Below are positions 9,478-21,270 of a DNA stretch of 25,454 bases, one piece after another. The stretch's first letter is position 1; every line of letters begins with the position of its first letter. The stretch lies in IMG/VR virus record IMGVR_UViG_3300043464_001613, positions 1 to 25,454 of that record. The stretch is one strand, 5' to 3'. The translations under genes were made by a program, and so were the position numbers. The notes below the pieces were generated by a model, which worked only from the letters and a program-made list of their open reading frames with translations, was not told where the DNA came from and searched no databases. This DNA is from a virus.

Positions 9478-10257
9478 TTATTGTGTTATAGACAATTTCT
9501 TATCTACAATGTCCGTTTTTAGTTTTAAAAGTTTTTGTATATAACCATTTCTACGTAGTAATTTGAAGGTTAAGTTCTCATATGAGTACTCTCCACCGGA
9601 TTCAAGACCACTTTGTCTAAACTCTTTTATTTTCTTTCTTAGTATTTCAATTTGAGGTAAGACGTCTTTTTTACTTCCAAGATTAATCAATTTATCAATC
9701 TTTTTAGCGTACTCCTCACCCTTTTCTAAAATTTTCCTATCGTCAATATTTGGTTTCTTTTGTTTAGGTTCAACTATCCATTCATTATGTAATATTGAAT
9801 ATACACCTGAAGATATATGTTCTTCATTCACGTCTTGGACATATACTTCCACATCAAAACCTTTGATTTTTACATCATGATTGTTGTTCCAAACGTTTTT
9901 CTTTGCATCAAAAAACTCTTTAATTATATTATGTAAGTAAACGGTGTCCTTATTTTTAGAACCATCAAATTCATCAAAATCAATTAAAATATGTAAATCA
10001 ACATCTGAAAATTGTGACCAATTGTAGTTTGCTAATGATCCTGTAAGTACAATATCGTGAATAAAAAATTCAATACCGAAGGTGCCAATAAAATCGTCCG
10101 ATATCTCTAAAAGTTTTTTTCTAATATCATCACGCATTTTATATTCGTTATCTGTTAATTCAAAAATATTATCAGATAAAGTTTCCTTTGATTTAAATGA
10201 CTTAACAATTTTTTTGTCAAGTTCTTTGTCTTCAATTAATTCCTCAAATAAACTCAT
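9478..10257 (-). CDS. Pol-beta-superfamily nucleotidyltransferase
   Basis: The 259-residue protein carries the nucleotidyltransferase signature GS(x)n-DxD: LTGSLANYNWSQFSDVDLHILID at residues 71-93, with Gly73-Ser74 and the metal-binding Asp85 and Asp87. A third acidic residue on a following strand is seen in FDVEVYV (Asp135/Glu137). The C-terminal ~100 residues are helical and basic. Enzymes of this fold transfer a nucleotide to RNA, protein or a small molecule; the substrate cannot be read from the sequence. It overlaps the KTSC gene by one nucleotide at 10257, so the two are co-translated. It could modify a host factor or RNA; a minimal-nucleotidyltransferase-type toxin is less likely because the protein is longer. 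Confidence 0.8.
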   Translation of the reverse strand: MSLFEELIEDKELDKKIVKSFKSKETLSDNIFELTDNEYKMRDDIRKKLLEISDDFIGTFGIEFFIHDIVLTGSLANYNWSQFSDVDLHILIDFDEFDGSKNKDTVYLHNIIKEFFDAKKNVWNNNHDVKIKGFDVEVYVQDVNEEHISSGVYSILHNEWIVEPKQKKPNIDDRKILEKGEEYAKKIDKLINLGSKKDVLPQIEILRKKIKEFRQSGLESGGEYSYENLTFKLLRRNGYIQKLLKLKTDIVDKKLSITQ

Positions 10258-11403: not shown

Positions 11404-13434
11404 ATGTCAGTAGATTTTTTTGAAGATGGACCAACCACAAATCCTAAAAAAGGACGTAAAGGTTCTACAACCCCTATCTTAGATAACTTTTCTCGTGATT
11501 TAATTAAGATGGCGGAAGAGGGTAAAATTGACCCTGTAGTTGGTAGGGATAATGAAGTAAAAAGAATTGCACAAATTCTTTCTCGTAAAAAGAAAAACAA
11601 TGCGGTTATCGTTGGAGAATCGGGTGTCGGCAAATCCGCACTTGTTGAAAAACTCGCATTAATGATTTACAAAGGAGATTGTCCACCAAATTTATTGGAC
11701 AAAAGATTGGTTGCTCTTGATTTAACTTCCTTAGTTGCCGGTACAAAATATCGTGGTCAATTTGAAGAGAGGATAAAAGCAATTATTAATGAATTACAAG
11801 AATCCCCGAATGTAATTGTCTTTATTGATGAATTACATACAATGGTTGGGGCAGGTAATGCGAGTGGTGCGATGGATGCAGCTAACATTCTTAAACCAGC
11901 TTTGGCTCGTGGTGAAATGCAATGTATTGGTGCAACAACATTTGATGAATTTAAAAAACATATTGAAAAGGATTCCGCATTGGTTAGACGTTTTCAAAAA
12001 GTTATTTTAAAAGAACCGACTATTGACGAAACAATTGAGATTCTAAAAAACTTACGTGATTCTTATCAAGGATTTCATAAAGTAGAATATGAAGAAGGCG
12101 TTTTGGAAACAATTGTAAAACTTTCACATCGTTATATTACGGACAGACAATTTCCTGATAAGGCAATTGATGTATTAGACGAATTAGGTTCTGAAAAAAG
12201 AGTTTCATCTAAAGTTCCTGAAATTATTGAGAAATTAAAAAAGGAAATTGATTCTGTAAGAGATAAGAAAGTACAAGTAGTAAAAAGTCAAAATTATGAA
12301 CAAGCGGCCAAACTAAGAGATGAAGAGAAAAAAATTGTAACTAAATTAGAAGAAGAAAAGATTAAGTGGTCTAACAAACAAAAAAACAATAAAATACCAA
12401 TCACAATTGATGACGTATATGAAATTGTTTCTGAAATGACCGGAGTACCTATTACAAAATTAGATACGAAAGAAACTCAAAAACTTTTAAACATTGAGGA
12501 AACACTTTCATCTAAAGTTATTGGACAAGATGAGGCGATTGCAACAATATCAAAATCAATTAGAAGAAATCGTGTTGGTATCAAGGAAGCAAATAAACCA
12601 ATCGGTTCATTTATCTTCATTGGTTCAACTGGTGTGGGTAAAACATTTTTAGCCAAATCAATTGCTGAAATTTTATTCGGAGACCCAAATAAAATCATCC
12701 GTGTTGACATGAGTGAGTATATGGAAAAACATAATGTATCAAAATTGATTGGTTCACCACCAGGATATGTTGGTTATGATGAAGGTGGTCAGTTAACTGA
12801 AAAAGTTAAGAACAATCCATTTTCTGTAATCTTGTTTGATGAAATTGAAAAGGCTCATAGAGATGTCTTTAATATTCTTTTACAAATTTTAGATGAAGGA
12901 CATTTGACCGATTCCTTCGGTAGAAAAATTAATTTCACTAACACGATTGTTATAATGACTTCTAATGTGGGAGCTAAAAGAGTTTCTGAATTGGGAGGTG
13001 GAGTTGGATTCTCAACGACATCAAGTGAAAATCAAAAAGTTGAGGTTAGGAAAACTATGATACAAAAGGCCTTAAAACAACAATTTAATCCTGAGTTTTT
13101 AAATCGTATTGATGATGTTATTTTATTCAATTCATTAAACGAAGAAACGTTGAAAAAAATAATTAATCTTGAAATGGTTAGATTAAATAATAGATTGAAA
13201 GATAAAGGATATAAAATCACCTTTGATAAAACTGTAATCAATAGAATTTACGAATTGAACAAACAAGAAGAATACGGTGCTCGTCCTTTAAAAAGAATCA
13301 TACAAAATTTATGTGAAGATTTTTTAAGTGAGGAGATTTTAAAGGGTAACATAATTGAAGATGAGTCTGTTACAATAAAATATAAGAATGATGTCTTATC
13401 AATAAATAAATCAGCTAAAAAAGTCATTGAATAA
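11404..13434 (+). CDS. ClpC-like AAA+ unfoldase lacking the N-domain
   Basis: Hsp100 proteins thread substrates, feeding ClpP if they carry the docking loop. The 676-residue protein has two AAA+ modules: first Walker A GESGVGKS (71-78) and Walker B VIVFIDE (about 137-143); second Walker A GSTGVGKT (407-414) and Walker B VILFDE (475-480). A UVR-like middle segment (QNYEQAAKLRDEE, 297-309) marks it as ClpC rather than ClpB or ClpA. The ClpP-docking tripeptide is present as VGF (534-536). Compared with cellular ClpC (about 810-850 aa), the double Clp-N repeat domain that receives adaptors is missing, but the linker (VDFFEDG...TTPILDNFSRDL) is kept. It overlaps the next gene by one nucleotide (TAATG). 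Confidence 0.93.
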   Translation: MSVDFFEDGPTTNPKKGRKGSTTPILDNFSRDLIKMAEEGKIDPVVGRDNEVKRIAQILSRKKKNNAVIVGESGVGKSALVEKLALMIYKGDCPPNLLDKRLVALDLTSLVAGTKYRGQFEERIKAIINELQESPNVIVFIDELHTMVGAGNASGAMDAANILKPALARGEMQCIGATTFDEFKKHIEKDSALVRRFQKVILKEPTIDETIEILKNLRDSYQGFHKVEYEEGVLETIVKLSHRYITDRQFPDKAIDVLDELGSEKRVSSKVPEIIEKLKKEIDSVRDKKVQVVKSQNYEQAAKLRDEEKKIVTKLEEEKIKWSNKQKNNKIPITIDDVYEIVSEMTGVPITKLDTKETQKLLNIEETLSSKVIGQDEAIATISKSIRRNRVGIKEANKPIGSFIFIGSTGVGKTFLAKSIAEILFGDPNKIIRVDMSEYMEKHNVSKLIGSPPGYVGYDEGGQLTEKVKNNPFSVILFDEIEKAHRDVFNILLQILDEGHLTDSFGRKINFTNTIVIMTSNVGAKRVSELGGGVGFSTTSSENQKVEVRKTMIQKALKQQFNPEFLNRIDDVILFNSLNEETLKKIINLEMVRLNNRLKDKGYKITFDKTVINRIYELNKQEEYGARPLKRIIQNLCEDFLSEEILKGNIIEDESVTIKYKNDVLSINKSAKKVIE

Positions 13435-14072
13435 TGAAAAAAAAATTATGGATTTTTGGTGACTCTTTTTCGGTTCCATTTAAAAAAGTTGCAGATGTTC
13501 ATCCATATATCCCATATAAAGGATATCTCCCAAAAATACATTCAGATATTATCTCGGAAAAGTTAGATATGGAGATAATGGATATGTCACATGGTGGATC
13601 ATCAAACTATGATATTTTTCATACCTATGTAAAGTGTATGCGTGAAATTAATGAAGATGACGTGGTAATTTTTGGTTGGACTCAAATAATAAGATTTAGA
13701 ATTGCATCTAAACGTAATGATTTCTATGATGTAATTATTGCTGTTGTTGAACATATGAAAGATTTGATTGATATACCTAGTAAATCTTTATGGGATATCA
13801 CGGTAAATCGTTCTAACAATTCAATATATTATGATGAACTTTGTGATTTTATAAAAATTATAAAACAATCAAATCCAAAATGTAAAATTCTACATTGGAC
13901 ATGGGTTGAACCAATTTTTAAAGACAATTTTGAAAATAACTTTTATAATTTACTTATTCCTTTTAAGAAATATAAAATGATAAAGGAAGAAACAAATAAT
14001 AATGTTGATGATTTCCATTATGGGGAACATGCACATGCTGAGTTGGCTGAAGATTTATTAAAATTTTTGTAA
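13434..14072 (+). CDS. SGNH/GDSL-family hydrolase
   Basis: The 212-residue protein shows block I FGDSFS with nucleophile Ser11, a block II/III-like GGSSNYD, and C-terminal block V with Asp192 and His195 (DDFHYGEH). This family removes acyl groups from lipids, polysaccharides or other carbohydrates. No signal peptide is seen, so it acts in the cytoplasm, in the virion, or after lysis. It is translationally coupled to the ClpC-like gene, which gives no clear clue to its substrate. A second SGNH-like gene lies at 16085-16906. Similar intracellular SGNH proteins occur in many environmental phages without known targets. Confidence 0.78.
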   Translation: MKKKLWIFGDSFSVPFKKVADVHPYIPYKGYLPKIHSDIISEKLDMEIMDMSHGGSSNYDIFHTYVKCMREINEDDVVIFGWTQIIRFRIASKRNDFYDVIIAVVEHMKDLIDIPSKSLWDITVNRSNNSIYYDELCDFIKIIKQSNPKCKILHWTWVEPIFKDNFENNFYNLLIPFKKYKMIKEETNNNVDDFHYGEHAHAELAEDLLKFL

Positions 14073-14506: not shown

Positions 14507-14935
14507 ATGGATAATGTAAACGAAACACAAGGCGAATTAATATTATTACGAGGTTTACCTGGTTCAGGTAAATCAACATTAGCAAAAATTATCTTACAAC
14601 TTAGAAGTACGGACGAACCTGAAGTTTTATCTGCTGATGATTTTTTTGAAGATAAAGAAGGTGATTACAATTTTGATGTGACTAAATTAAAAGAGGCACA
14701 TAACTACTGTCAGTTTAGGTGTTCTGAAAGAATGAGACAACAAAAGGCTAGAATTGTTGTTGCAAACACTTTTACTCAAGAATGGGAAATGGATGAATAT
14801 TTTAAAATGGCTGAAAGATACAATTACAGAGTTCATACAGTAATTGTTGAAAATAGACACGGGAATGAAAATGTCCACGGAGTACCCGAAGATAAACTTC
14901 AACAAATGAAGGATAGGTTTCAAATCAAATTATAA
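14507..14935 (+). CDS. P-loop kinase, polynucleotide-kinase-like
   Basis: The 142-residue protein is an AAA_33/zeta-type P-loop kinase: Walker A GLPGSGKST (16-24), the acceptor-side acidic pair in SADDFF (Asp44, Asp45), and VVANTFT with Asn87 on a later strand. T4 polynucleotide kinase has the same kinase fold in its N-terminal half, but its C-terminal 3'-phosphatase domain is absent here. The RNA ligase starts 13 nt downstream, and a cREC protein follows two genes later, which suggests 5'-OH RNA phosphorylation before ligation. Other small kinases of this fold act on other substrates, so the RNA role rests on context. Confidence 0.78.
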   Translation: MDNVNETQGELILLRGLPGSGKSTLAKIILQLRSTDEPEVLSADDFFEDKEGDYNFDVTKLKEAHNYCQFRCSERMRQQKARIVVANTFTQEWEMDEYFKMAERYNYRVHTVIVENRHGNENVHGVPEDKLQQMKDRFQIKL

Positions 14936-14948
14936 GTGAGTCAATTTA

Positions 14949-16088
14949 TTGAATCTTATTTTAAATCACAATACCCACCTCAAAAAACACCACTCAAAAA
15001 CTGTGTTAACCACATTAGAAAAATATTACGAAAATGGTTTGTTACATAAACAAACCCACCCAACTCTTGATTTAACTATTTGGAATTACTCACCAAAAGT
15101 TCAATATGAAAGATTGTGGGATGATATTACCATACAATGTCGTGGATTAGTTACAAATTCAAAAGGTGATATTGTTGCAAGACCATTTAAGAAATTTTTT
15201 AATTACGAAGAACATAAACCAGAAGATATTCCAAATGAACATTACGAAGTGTATGAAAAAATGGACGGTTCTTTAGGTATTCTTTTTAATTATGAAAATG
15301 AATGGGTAATGGCAACTCGTGGATCATTTACCTCACCACAAGCAATTAAAGGAAAAGAACTATTAGAGAAATATAATTTCAAAAGATTACATACTAATTA
15401 CACATACTTGTTTGAAATAATTTACAAAGAAAATAGAATTGTATGTGATTATGATTATGAAGATATTGTCTTATTAGGTATGATTGAAACAAAGACAGGA
15501 AACGAAGTTAATATTCATAACAACAACGAAGATATTCGTTTTAAAAATATGATTTCCAATATTGGATTTCGTGTTGTTATGTTATATAAAACATGGGGGG
15601 AGACTTATGATTTATTAAAAGAAGAAATACAAAAGGATAGAGAAGGATATGTAATTAAATTTAAGAGTGGTTTTCGTATGAAAATTAAAGGAGAAGAATA
15701 TAAAAGATTACATAAAATATTAACAAATTTTTCATCCAAAGATATTTGGGAATTAATGAAAGAAGGAAAACCTTTAGATGAATTTTTAGATAGAGTTCCT
15801 GACGAATTTTACAAGTGGGTTAAACAACAAGTAAGTTCTTTTGAATATGCCAAATATAGAATTAGGGAACATTGTGGTAAGATACATGATTATTTTAGAT
15901 ATGGAAAATATGGAGATGTATATCCCGAACCAACAAAAAAAGACTTTGCATTACATTTAGAAAAATGTAATACCGAATCACACTATAAATCAATATTATT
16001 TGCAATGTGGGATGGAAAACCATATGAACATATGATTTGGAAGATAATGAAACCTAAATACGAAAAACCATTTAAGAAAGACGAATGA
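14949..16088 (+). CDS. RNA ligase, T4 Rnl1 family
   Basis: ATP-dependent RNA ligases seal 5'-phosphate to 3'-OH ends; T4 Rnl1 repairs tRNA cut by host anticodon nuclease. Residue numbers assume a TTG start at 14949 (379 aa; T4 Rnl1 has 374). The nucleotidyltransferase motifs are in place: nucleophile Lys104 in EKMDGSLG (motif I), FEIIY with Glu156 (motif IIIa), EGYVIKF (232-238, motif IV) and KIK (245-247, motif V). The N-terminal QCRGLV and RPFKKFFNYEE blocks are typical of the Rnl1 family. No ATG is available in frame before motif I, so the start must be TTG, or GTG at 15003. The stop overlaps the next ATG (ATGA). Confidence 0.92.
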   Translation: MNLILNHNTHLKKHHSKTVLTTLEKYYENGLLHKQTHPTLDLTIWNYSPKVQYERLWDDITIQCRGLVTNSKGDIVARPFKKFFNYEEHKPEDIPNEHYEVYEKMDGSLGILFNYENEWVMATRGSFTSPQAIKGKELLEKYNFKRLHTNYTYLFEIIYKENRIVCDYDYEDIVLLGMIETKTGNEVNIHNNNEDIRFKNMISNIGFRVVMLYKTWGETYDLLKEEIQKDREGYVIKFKSGFRMKIKGEEYKRLHKILTNFSSKDIWELMKEGKPLDEFLDRVPDEFYKWVKQQVSSFEYAKYRIREHCGKIHDYFRYGKYGDVYPEPTKKDFALHLEKCNTESHYKSILFAMWDGKPYEHMIWKIMKPKYEKPFKKDE

Positions 16089-16906
16089 GAAATATTGCAC
16101 TATTTTCCGGCGGTTCGGTGACTTTAGGACTTGGTTTGGAATTGGAACTAAGACCGAAATATAATGATCATCAATGGTTGAGTGAAAACGGACTTATGTT
16201 ACCATTAGAAAGAGAGAAAGAAGATGAAGAATACTGGAAAAATTATAGATATTCAAAAATCGTATCTGATGAATTAGGTTTAATTGAATATAACGTACAT
16301 GACCATCACGACAAACAAATAGGTGGAAATTCAATTGATACAATATGGTTAATTAATAGGAATATAAAAAAATTTTCGGAATTACTTAATCAAGTAAAAT
16401 ATGTTTTTTTAGATATTGGATTTATTAGATGGTGGGACGAGAATTTACATGGAATGGATAACCCAAATAATTTACCTAACACAATTAACGAAGTTATTGA
16501 TTTTATTAATAATCCAAATAGTGATTATGGTGCAACATTTACCGCACTACAATGGTTAGAAAAATTAGATGTTGATACATATTGGGATGAGACAATAAAA
16601 AAATATTACGACTTAAAAAACCTTTACCCTGAAATACAATTTATCATTACTCCTTGGGTTTTTAATGGTGAAGATACATTGATGAATAAAAAAATAGATG
16701 ATGAATTAAAAAATGATATTGTTTTGTTTGATGAAGAAAAATCAATGTTTAATTTTTTAACTAAAAATAAGTTGATGGTTGGTGATGTTGCGAAGGGTTT
16801 TAATGGTAATTATAGATATACTTATAAAGACATGCACCCTTCAGTTGATGGTCATAAAAAAATTGCAGAAATATTAATTAAATTTATAAATGAAAAAAAA
16901 CGATAG
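16085..16906 (+). CDS. SGNH-hydrolase-like protein with altered GDS motif
   Basis: The 273-residue protein has SGNH-like landmarks: block I FSGGSVTLG with candidate nucleophile Ser11, GGNS with Asn82, and a C-terminal DMHPSVDGHKKIAEIL with His251. The usual GDS is GGS here, and Asp249 is two rather than three residues before the His, so activity may be altered or the Asp replaced. The middle (about 100-200) is divergent, with many aromatics. It overlaps the RNA ligase by 4 nt and the cREC gene by 17 nt, so it is embedded in the RNA-repair operon. The substrate is unknown; an intracellular role is likely, as there is no signal peptide. Confidence 0.6.
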   Translation: MRNIALFSGGSVTLGLGLELELRPKYNDHQWLSENGLMLPLEREKEDEEYWKNYRYSKIVSDELGLIEYNVHDHHDKQIGGNSIDTIWLINRNIKKFSELLNQVKYVFLDIGFIRWWDENLHGMDNPNNLPNTINEVIDFINNPNSDYGATFTALQWLEKLDVDTYWDETIKKYYDLKNLYPEIQFIITPWVFNGEDTLMNKKIDDELKNDIVLFDEEKSMFNFLTKNKLMVGDVAKGFNGNYRYTYKDMHPSVDGHKKIAEILIKFINEKKR

Positions 16907-17372
16907 GTTAAGACTTTATTTGGATGATGTTAGAATTCCGCTCGGTGAAGATTGGATTTTAGTGAGAAATTATGATGAATTTGTTGCTAAAATAAAATTA
17001 CATGGTTTAGGTTCATTTGAAGTCATATCTTTAGATCACGATTTAGGTGAAGGAGCAATGACGGAATATTACACCAACACCAAGAAAAATTTTGAATTAG
17101 ATTACAGTAGAATTCCTGAAAAAACTGGCATGGACTGTTGTAGGTATTTGGTTAGTGAAAGTATGAATGAAAAAATACCTTTACCTCAAATATACGTACA
17201 TTCAGCAAACCCAATCGGTAGTGCAAATATGATGGGTTATATTAACAATTATTTAATGAATCAATCATTACCTCAGACATGTGTTAGAGTTAAAATTGAA
17301 CACACAATAGATGAAAAAGCTCAACTTACACCTGAAGAAAGGAAAAAGAAATGGGATAAGAATAAAGAATAA
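16890..17372 (+). CDS. Cyclic-phosphate-processing receiver (cREC) domain protein
   Basis: The 160-residue protein matches the cREC family, a variant receiver fold that has been predicted to process 2',3'-cyclic phosphate RNA ends. The diagnostic motifs are LRLYLDDVRIP (Asp12, Asp13, Arg15), SLDHDLGEG (Asp49, His50, Asp51), TGMD, and VHSANPIG (His104, Ser105, Asn107). It is a stand-alone domain without a histidine-kinase partner, so phospho-relay signalling is unlikely. Its position behind a kinase and an Rnl1-type ligase fits RNA repair: it could open or remove the cyclic phosphate, a task done in T4 by the phosphatase half of Pnkp. Family assignment is good; the biochemical role is predicted. 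Confidence 0.82.
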   Translation: MKKNDRLRLYLDDVRIPLGEDWILVRNYDEFVAKIKLHGLGSFEVISLDHDLGEGAMTEYYTNTKKNFELDYSRIPEKTGMDCCRYLVSESMNEKIPLPQIYVHSANPIGSANMMGYINNYLMNQSLPQTCVRVKIEHTIDEKAQLTPEERKKKWDKNKE

Positions 17373-17433
17373 TTTTTTAATTTAAAAAATTGTATTATCT
17401 TTATAACCCTAAACTAACCTTAACTAAATTTTG

Positions 17434-17757
17434 ATGAAAAATCTTAAAACTAAACCTCACAAAGAACTGATAATCAAAGGTAAATACAAAGAATTTAGTG
17501 ACTTCTATGAAAAAAATAAAGAAATCATCTATAAGTCAATTATTGAACTTTTTGGTGAGTTTAAAACTTCAAAAGAAGAAACATTAATTTTACATCTGTG
17601 GGCTAAAATTGATGGTATGGAATGGGACACTGAGTTTAGTTTTTCACGTCAAGAATCGGTAGTTTTGAGTAGGGATATATTACCTTATTTTGAGGAAAAT
17701 GAAGATTATGAGGTGTGTGCTGAAATTTTAAAATTAAAAAAAGAATTGACTTTATAA
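17434..17757 (+). CDS. Hypothetical protein, 107 aa
   Basis: The start is set at the ATG at 17434 rather than the TTG three bases earlier. The product is helical and acidic, with no signal peptide, membrane segment or recognised motif. Trp-containing segments (LHLWAKIDGMEWDTEF) occur in the middle. It follows the cREC gene after 61 nt and is the last gene before two tandem terminators, so it is probably the final cistron of the RNA-repair unit or a short unit of its own. No function can be given. Confidence 0.6.
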   Translation: MKNLKTKPHKELIIKGKYKEFSDFYEKNKEIIYKSIIELFGEFKTSKEETLILHLWAKIDGMEWDTEFSFSRQESVVLSRDILPYFEENEDYEVCAEILKLKKELTL

Positions 17758-20010: not shown

Positions 20011-20837
20011 TATTTGTTATTTAATCCTATTGATATTTGATTATAATTCCTAATTGGGTCTCTATCTAATTTTAATGTGAAGAATTTGAAATCTCTTATA
20101 ATACCAAATTTAACTGTTGTGAAATTTGTATTTGATTTAGGAAAGGAAATACCACCTAAATCATCTCTACCTTGGTATCTAATAATTTCATTTCCAAATC
20201 CAACCATTCCATGAACCCCTAATTTACCAAATCTTTTACCTCCACCGAGATATAGTGTACCTTCTTTTAGAAAATCATTTTTACTTAATGTAAAATCTAC
20301 TTCATTAATTTTACCGTTTGGATAATATTGGTTGCGATCAATTTCATAGGTCATAACGTAATCAACAATAAAATATCCTTTATTACCACCTACGGCACCC
20401 CAAAAAGAAGCTTGATTGTTATTTGTATGTCCAATACCCAAAGTATAATATGTCTCCTTTTTAACAGTATCTCTTTTTCCATTTTCATAAACACGAACTA
20501 CACTTCTATGTCTCCATCCAAAATCATCATACCATATATAAGGAAAAGGTTGATACCAACCCCAATTACCCCACATTAATCCATATGGGTTTAGTAAATT
20601 ACCTCTCCACCTTCTTACTAATGGTTGATTAGGTACTCGTTGTCCTGGTCTAATTGGTTCTGTTTGAGTTCTCCATCTACTAACCTCATTTCTTTGTGAA
20701 GTTGATGGTTGGATTCTTGGTGTTGTTGTTCTTTGTTGTGAATTATTTCTCCAAGAACTTACCTGAGCATTTAACATTATTGAACAAAATAATATTAAAA
20801 TCAAAATTAAACCCGTAATTAACAAAAATTTTTTCAT
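20010..20837 (-). CDS. Secreted protein with Trp-Arg repeats and outer-membrane barrel-like domain
   Basis: The 275-residue precursor has a signal peptide (about 1-25, ending NAQ). Residues 26-80 are Gln/Arg/Thr/Pro-rich and disordered, with three [SR]xWR units (Trp29, Trp55, Trp77). A Trp/Tyr-rich stretch (86-110) follows, then about 165 residues of beta-rich sequence with alternating Gly, aromatic and charged residues (TYYTLGIGHT, TLYLGGGKRFGKLGVHGMVGFGNE), as in small outer-membrane barrels. It lies between PspC (4-nt overlap) and the oxygenase (1-nt overlap). The family is not recognised. Confidence 0.7.
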   Translation of the reverse strand: MKKFLLITGLILILILFCSIMLNAQVSSWRNNSQQRTTTPRIQPSTSQRNEVSRWRTQTEPIRPGQRVPNQPLVRRWRGNLLNPYGLMWGNWGWYQPFPYIWYDDFGWRHRSVVRVYENGKRDTVKKETYYTLGIGHTNNNQASFWGAVGGNKGYFIVDYVMTYEIDRNQYYPNGKINEVDFTLSKNDFLKEGTLYLGGGKRFGKLGVHGMVGFGNEIIRYQGRDDLGGISFPKSNTNFTTVKFGIIRDFKFFTLKLDRDPIRNYNQISIGLNNK

Positions 20838-21013
20838 ATGCTTTTAGTTAAAATTGTAGTTAATAAATAACCTGTTATTATTGGGAATGGTGAGAAAATT
20901 AAGAAAAAAAACAATAATCTCCAAACTAATGGGTCAACGTTTGTTATCTGACTTAATCCACTACAAACTCCAAAGAAAACCTTATCATCATATATTCTGT
21001 AAAACTTTTTCAT
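20834..21013 (-). CDS. PspC-domain membrane protein, 59 aa
   Basis: This small gene starts at the ATG at 21011-21013 and ends in TGA at 20834-20836, overlapping the next ATG (ATGA). The product is almost entirely a PspC domain: KKFYRIYDDKVFFGVCSGL, then NVDPLVWRLLFFFLIF and a final hydrophobic stretch. PspC is an inner-membrane protein of the phage-shock response, which protects the membrane when secretins or other pores mislocalise. No PspB or PspA is seen here. The residue pattern DxxxxGVCxGL..xxxxDPxxxRL is clear, so the family call is strong despite the size. It has a TATTTATA element 3 nt before the ATG and lies in an operon of outer-membrane proteins. Confidence 0.88.
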   Translation of the reverse strand: MKKFYRIYDDKVFFGVCSGLSQITNVDPLVWRLLFFFLIFSPFPIITGYLLTTILTKSI

Positions 21014-21024: not shown

Positions 21025-21050
21025 CTAAAAAAGGGGTTATTCAACCCCTT
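21025..21050 (-). terminator. Terminator overlapping the end of the FeoA-like gene
   Basis: In minus-strand sense AAGGGGTT-GAAT-AACCCCTT is followed by TTTTTT. The FeoA-like stop codon (21037-21039) lies in the stem-loop, so the stem encodes the last residues (KGVE). Confidence 0.82.
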
Positions 21051-21270
21051 TCAAACATATTCTATCTAATTCCTCTTGTCTTAAAGCTACCACAGAGGAA
21101 ACATTATCATTTTCGGTTAATATATTAACCGTATATAACCCTAATCTTTTTTCGCCAAATTCAATTCTTTCACCTGTAATAAACCCCATTTCCATAAGTC
21201 TTATTCTTAAACATGGGGCACATCTTTCACAATTTTCAGGTTGTGGAACATCTACAACTTCGTATTTCAT
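21037..21270 (-). CDS. FeoA-like domain protein with CxxCxxC motif
   Basis: The 77-residue protein has the SH3-like FeoA layout: RIRLMEMGFITGERIEF, then a beta segment and the typical C-terminal VVALRQEELDRICL. FeoA is a small cytoplasmic partner of the ferrous iron transporter FeoB; the same fold serves as the C-terminal domain of DtxR-type regulators. Unusually, a CxxCxxC cluster (Cys14, Cys17, Cys20) precedes the core, which could bind a metal or an Fe-S centre. No FeoB is present in the window. It overlaps the CsgG-like gene by one nucleotide. It lies upstream of an Fe(II)-dependent oxygenase, but a terminator stands between them. Confidence 0.78.
   Translation of the reverse strand: MKYEVVDVPQPENCERCAPCLRIRLMEMGFITGERIEFGEKRLGLYTVNILTENDNVSSVVALRQEELDRICLKGVE

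Follow-up and report, generated by a model that had tools for sequence, protein, structure and literature searches.

How might a phage heal the 3' end of a cut RNA when its kinase carries no phosphatase domain? This question is raised by positions 14507-17372 of the window (the whole stretch of viral DNA that was analysed, 25,454 nucleotides), where a sequence-only reading had described an RNA-repair operon with the end-healing work split between a kinase for the 5' end and a cREC (cyclic-phosphate processing receiver) protein for the 3' end. The coordinates of the genes confirm the overlapping or close order that it had described.

14507-14935, plus strand: stand-alone P-loop kinase, predicted RNA 5'-OH polynucleotide kinase (142 aa; AAA_33, phrog_2071)
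14949-16088, plus strand: Rnl1-type (T4 RNA ligase 1-like) ATP-dependent RNA ligase (379 aa from TTG; RNA_lig_T4_1, phrog_562)
16085-16906, plus strand: SGNH-like protein, between ligase and cREC (273 aa; weak sequence basis)
16890-17372, plus strand: cREC, predicted cyclic phosphoesterase (160 aa; PF20274, phrog_1479)

The window sits within a 47,058-base IMG/VR fragment (IMGVR_UViG_3300044616_001090, approximately contig positions 5563-31016) from a tailed phage, in which terminase and portal genes were identified with PHROGs and four tRNA genes lie at 38-39 kb. The hosts of the window family are probably Bacteroidota; the closest isolated phage with a cREC gene infects Flavobacterium. Analysis with PADLOC assigned no defense system, the kinase giving P-loop matches only.

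The predicted kinase matches Pfam AAA_33 (61 bits, cut-off 27) and phrog_2071 (1e-40). In an alignment, its conserved residues are the P-loop (G16..G21 K22), D44, and R117, with the P-loop and D44 invariant. Since Pfam found no HAD or other phosphatase domain in the 142-aa open reading frame, its description as a P-loop kinase without a phosphatase domain holds. When an AlphaFold2 model of the protein (pLDDT 84) was searched with Foldseek, the kinase domains of CthPnkp (Clostridium thermocellum Pnkp) and T4 Pnkp took the top ranks (E 3e-6 to 1e-4), and from this model the protein is predicted to be a 5'-OH polynucleotide kinase with a Pnkp-type fold.

The ligase matches Pfam RNA_lig_T4_1 (76.7 bits, cut-off 28.3), phrog_562 from end to end (4e-70, residues 20-377), and the T4 Rnl1 structure 2c5u (E 1e-12, in an alignment that stops at residue 306). 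Its motif residues (K104xDGS, E156, E232, and K245xK247) are invariant among 26 sequences, in agreement with the earlier description of an Rnl1-family ligase with all motifs. The true start is likely GTG 15003, which would give a protein of ∼361 aa, because the ligases of relatives begin there. An insertion of ∼40 residues after motif I, present in the ligases of loci L104, L120, and L121, is absent from the window's ligase.

The cREC protein scores 77.1 bits against cREC_REC (PF20274; cut-off 27) and matches phrog_1479 at 4e-26. The LDDVR, SLDHDLG, and HSANP motifs noticed in the sequence-only reading are present, and their key residues (L11 D12 D13 R15, D49 H50 D51, and H104 S105 N107) are invariant among 58 sequences; the invariant aspartates (D12, D13, D49, and D51) include those that close strand 1 and strand 3. 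An AlphaFold2 model (pLDDT 93) aligns with CheY-like receivers (Z ∼10 over ∼100 residues); with this model, Foldseek by itself gave zero matches below 0.001, and the cREC sequence had no match among PDB sequences. The protein is thus predicted to be a cyclic-phosphate hydrolase with a receiver-like fold, in a family that was called experimentally uncharacterized in a 2022 paper (PMC9503650).

The kinase, ligase, and cREC genes recur together in other phages, where the sequence-only reading had proposed looking for them. Four single-gene IMG/VR scans gave 218 viral loci; once five loci from phage records and the window itself were added, these formed 83 non-redundant clusters. All three genes are present in 48 of these 83 loci, a majority of the 48 having the window's backbone (terminase, ClpA-like, and Hsp20), which was counted as one lineage. 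The order kinase-ligase-cREC is found in the window and in G010, the largest genome of the window family. Other backbones include a gene for a calcineurin-like phosphoesterase (MPE), whose nearest solved structure is 1xm7 (aq_1665), in the orders kinase-x-MPE-ligase-cREC (L104), MPE-cREC-kinase-(Prs, NamPT)-ligase (L072), ligase-MPE-kinase-cREC (L127 and L136), and cREC-MPE-ligase (L137 type); G021 and G045 have SAK-MPE-kinase, with cREC ∼20 kb off. With all three genes in 48 of 83 loci recruited with single genes, in several orders and backbones, the trio is not a chance arrangement but a recurring RNA-repair neighborhood. In L072 (11656-14026), the genes between kinase and ligase encode phosphoribosyl-synthetase-like and nicotinamide phosphoribosyltransferase proteins, a possible link to NAD salvage.

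As a measure of linkage, component positions were obtained by genome-wide searches of 50 records, and distances were compared in 15 representatives, one per apparent lineage. Pairs lay closer together than under random placement, with Fisher P values that are approximate because the lineages were picked by gene order, with no tree (kinase-ligase 1.6e-4, ligase-cREC 3.4e-4, cREC-MPE 2.2e-5, and kinase-MPE 1.0e-5). A distance of 5 kb or less was seen for ligase and cREC in 6/8 representatives, for cREC and MPE in 9/13, and for kinase and MPE in 6/8. Kinase and ligase also persist without cREC (G028, G031, and G032), and cREC occurs without a ligase in several contigs, so cREC is not a strict ligase partner.

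The SGNH-like gene overlaps the ligase by 4 bases and cREC by 17 bases, and the sequence-only reading had suggested that it may belong to the system. We rejected it as a member since only 2 of the 48 trio loci have it at this place and other SGNH-like genes occur elsewhere in the same contig. The SGNH assignment is itself weak (GSCFA, E = 0.05), and relatives numbered zero in annotated phages and one, besides itself, in IMG/VR. The 47-kb contig encodes more than one SGNH/GDSL-like protein (window 13434-14072 and 16085-16906; L250 8130-9197 and 13381-14328), and these are possibly surface- or glycan-related.

To detect a T4-type Pnkp phosphatase, PF25109 (HAD_PNKP) was used, with phage pT24 as the positive control. 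None of the 48 related viral contigs, among them contigs of 335, 349, 251, and 217 kb, had a HAD_PNKP match; this observation holds for the group and is no proof for any single phage, because these contigs are mostly fragments and the window's own genome is incomplete as well. To that extent, the result supports the sequence-only reading. The control phage pT24 contains Pnkp and lacks cREC, and its Pnkp, used as a query in the viral scan, retrieved only itself. Two other candidates were discarded. Hits to PF08645 (PNK3P) were partial, covering positions 1-55 or 1-24 of 161; the proteins hit in G007 and G027 are HAD-like but lack the layout of Pnkp, and the G006 hit covers the same 55 positions. 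2H phosphoesterases, as the cyclic-phosphate enzyme, gave no match above the cut-off in 50 records.

Mutual exclusion of cREC and the Pnkp phosphatase was rejected as a general rule, as, of 12 cREC phage records tested (isolated phages or complete genomes), 4 also contain HAD_PNKP (Aeromonas phages avDM6 and P19, Serratia phage BF, and RaK2). Given that these phages have a full Pnkp phosphatase as well as cREC, and that kinase and ligase occur elsewhere without cREC, cREC is no general stand-in for the Pnkp phosphatase. The proposed split in end healing therefore survives in part: the trio neighborhood, the Pnkp-like fold of the kinase, and the absence of HAD_PNKP from the related contigs agree with it, whereas cREC as a general phosphatase replacement does not. 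The assignment of the whole 3' end to cREC alone is also not supported. When a 2',3'-cyclic phosphate is opened, the phosphate is still there, and Rnl1 cannot use such an end. Because the opened cyclic phosphate still blocks Rnl1, a further phosphatase step is expected, and the leftover phosphate would more plausibly be removed by calcineurin-like or Swiss-army-knife HAD phosphatases.

Genes for both kinds of phosphatase are present among these phages. MPE was matched in 22 of 50 records (one match being weak) and lies inside the cluster in backbones other than the window's; HAD_SAK_2, described by Pfam as the HAD domain of Swiss Army Knife RNA repair proteins, was matched in 17 of 50. Neither was found in the window's own 47,058-base fragment. 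In G010, MPE and HAD_SAK_2 lie at 319-324 kb and the trio at 107-109 kb, a separation of more than 200 kb, with the gene for an MPPED-like phosphoesterase at 88 kb; homologues of the genes that neighbor MPE and HAD_SAK_2 in G010 were not found in G003, G012, or G007. The window's contig also encodes an MPPED-like metallophosphoesterase (∼42.1-42.9 kb; L250 11221-11970), ∼20 kb from the trio, and several relatives have this gene at a similar distance. In L080 and L084, the gene for a relative of the MPPED-like protein is immediately adjacent to cREC, and in the Flavobacterium phage immuto such a gene lies ∼0.9 kb away. In a scan based on MPE, in which the other genes were not selected for, the 80 phage loci contained kinase (30), ligase (41), cREC (27), and HAD_SAK_2 (22). 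As a source of the missing 3'-phosphatase activity, the calcineurin-like phosphoesterase appears from these comparisons to be the better candidate.

When bacterial genomes were searched with the cREC profile, the loci recovered came mainly from Chryseobacterium, which is one genus and a cellular setting apart from the phages. In the chromosomes of this genus, 57 of 80 loci contain both cREC and MPE and 57 contain a T4 Rnl2-type ligase, the ligase and MPE genes lying after cREC in the same orientation. The Chryseobacterium cREC is shorter, stopping before strand 5, and the strand-5 lysine of the receiver family appears, as we read the sequence, to have no obvious counterpart. In L307 (7001-11436) and most of L308-L383, the genus-conserved order is cREC, DinB-like, T4 Rnl2-type ligase, MBL hydrolase, calcineurin-like phosphoesterase, and DEDD exonuclease. 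We tentatively propose, at somewhat less than an even chance, that a distinct 3'-healing route is common to Bacteroidota phages and Chryseobacterium: the cyclic phosphate would be opened by cREC and the phosphate removed by an MPE of the aq_1665 type, the two enzymes being equivalent to the Pnkp phosphatase and operating with Rnl1 and a stand-alone kinase in phages or with Rnl2 in bacteria.

Based on these results, we consider it fairly probable that the cluster is a phage RNA-repair (counter-ribonuclease) module in which the 3' end is healed in two steps by separate proteins. In the order of steps that we infer, the stand-alone kinase would phosphorylate the 5'-OH end of the cut RNA, cREC would open the 2',3'-cyclic phosphate at the 3' end, a separately encoded phosphatase, not a Pnkp phosphatase domain, would take off the remaining phosphate, and the Rnl1 ligase would join the 5'-phosphate to the 3'-OH. 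Candidates for the phosphatase would be MPE and the HAD "Swiss army knife" protein (both in G010, away from the trio) or the MPPED-like protein of the window's contig. The substrate may be tRNA, and a PrrC-type nuclease may be the activity that is countered. Evidence against such a module comes from the >200-kb separation in G010 and from the three genomes with kinase and ligase but no cREC; in addition, cREC also accompanies sirtuin, nudix, and NAD genes and occurs where there is no ligase, a distribution that fits a different substrate.

In Clostridium thermocellum Pnkp, the metallophosphoesterase domain is both a cyclic phosphodiesterase and a phosphomonoesterase. It is conceivable, although we regard it as unlikely, that MPE alone performs the whole of 3' healing by both activities and that cREC is accessory, for example in sensing or binding cyclic-phosphate ends. 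Such a division of labor would fit the position of MPE, which is the component closest to the kinase across lineages (including the SAK-MPE-kinase arrangement of G021 and G045, with its distant cREC), the retention of the receiver aspartates by cREC, and the behavior of known receivers, which are mostly switches and not hydrolases of outside substrates. Nevertheless, cREC and MPE co-occur in Chryseobacterium and in many phages, where cREC would be unneeded if MPE sufficed, and in the window family no MPE turned up in the vicinity of the trio.

A role for cREC in NAD-derived signaling is a published proposal (PMC7824862 and PMC9503650); in Serratia phage BF and RaK2, nudix and Sir2 genes adjoin cREC or are fused to it, and in L072 NAD-salvage genes lie between kinase and ligase. 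We nonetheless think it quite unlikely that the substrate of cREC is ADP-ribose cyclic phosphate or some other soluble signal derived from NAD, with cREC being only a neighbor in an anti-defense island that does not work with the ligase: sirtuin (PF02146) was found in 0 of the 48 related contigs, which are mostly fragments, when the Serratia phage BF control was positive, the tight linkage of cREC with kinase and ligase is kept across rearrangements of gene order, and the bacterial cREC adjoins an Rnl2 ligase. The name of phrog_562, RNA ligase and tail fiber attachment catalyst, also brings to mind a ligase with a non-repair function (tail-fiber attachment, as for T4 gp63) in an incidental run of small genes; with the nucleotidyltransferase motifs intact and the ligase linked to the polynucleotide kinase and cREC in several backbones, such a role is very improbable. 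Two-step 3' healing by separate proteins is the reading that we favor.

The core of this reading is not new. Opening of cyclic phosphates by cREC and its pairing with a kinase and a T4-like ligase were proposed by Iyer et al. in 2021 and 2022 (PMC7824862 and PMC9503650), and in V5-type phages the trio is known together with a sirtuin (PMC9503650). The interpretation from sequence alone is partly supported, being right in outline and incomplete as to removal of the 3'-phosphate. V5/Mydo-type neighborhoods resemble the present one in combining a T4-like RNA ligase, cREC, and a nucleotide kinase, and occasionally a calcineurin-like phosphoesterase (PMC9503650), but they are sirtuin-centered and include MazG, whereas no sirtuin was detected in the 48 contigs and the hosts here are probably Bacteroidota. 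The 2021 jumbo-phage paper predicted that cREC clears 2',3'-cyclic ends for ATP-grasp RNA ligases, as is predicted here, and named PNK-HAD and Swiss-army-knife HAD as the usual linear phosphatases (PMC7824862); in the present set PNK-HAD was not found and the main linked partner is the calcineurin-like family. The T4 Pnkp and Rnl1 tRNA-repair system shares the Pnkp-fold 5' kinase and Rnl1 ligase, but here no HAD phosphatase of that type is on the kinase or was found in related contigs. The Clostridium thermocellum Pnkp (kinase, metallophosphoesterase, and ligase in one chain) has the closest kinase fold in the PDB, and the window's relatives likewise have genes for a calcineurin-like phosphoesterase and for a ligase; it differs in that the genes here are separate, the ligase is of the Rnl1 type, cREC is extra, and the phosphoesterase is of the aq_1665 type. 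By these comparisons, the system would be a form of a published kind of RNA repair that lacks both the sirtuin and the Pnkp phosphatase.

This analysis adds comparative evidence that the recurrent partner is a separate calcineurin-like phosphoesterase, together with the test that found no T4-type phosphatase in the 48-contig group. If the proposal is true, cREC, a widespread phage domain, would acquire a concrete partner set, phage RNA end healing could be assembled from separate single-activity enzymes, and host nucleases that leave cyclic phosphates would be a pressure on these phages.

Other genes of the window were noted in the course of this analysis. A 108-aa protein (17431-17757) is encoded after cREC, or after the ligase if cREC is absent, in most members of the window family. 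A nucleotidyltransferase gene (9478-10257, minus strand; phrog_36119, with a weak MTPAP-like match) is kept upstream family-wide. FeoA-domain and PspC-domain proteins (21037-21270 and 20834-21013, minus strand) are host-like and rare among phages.
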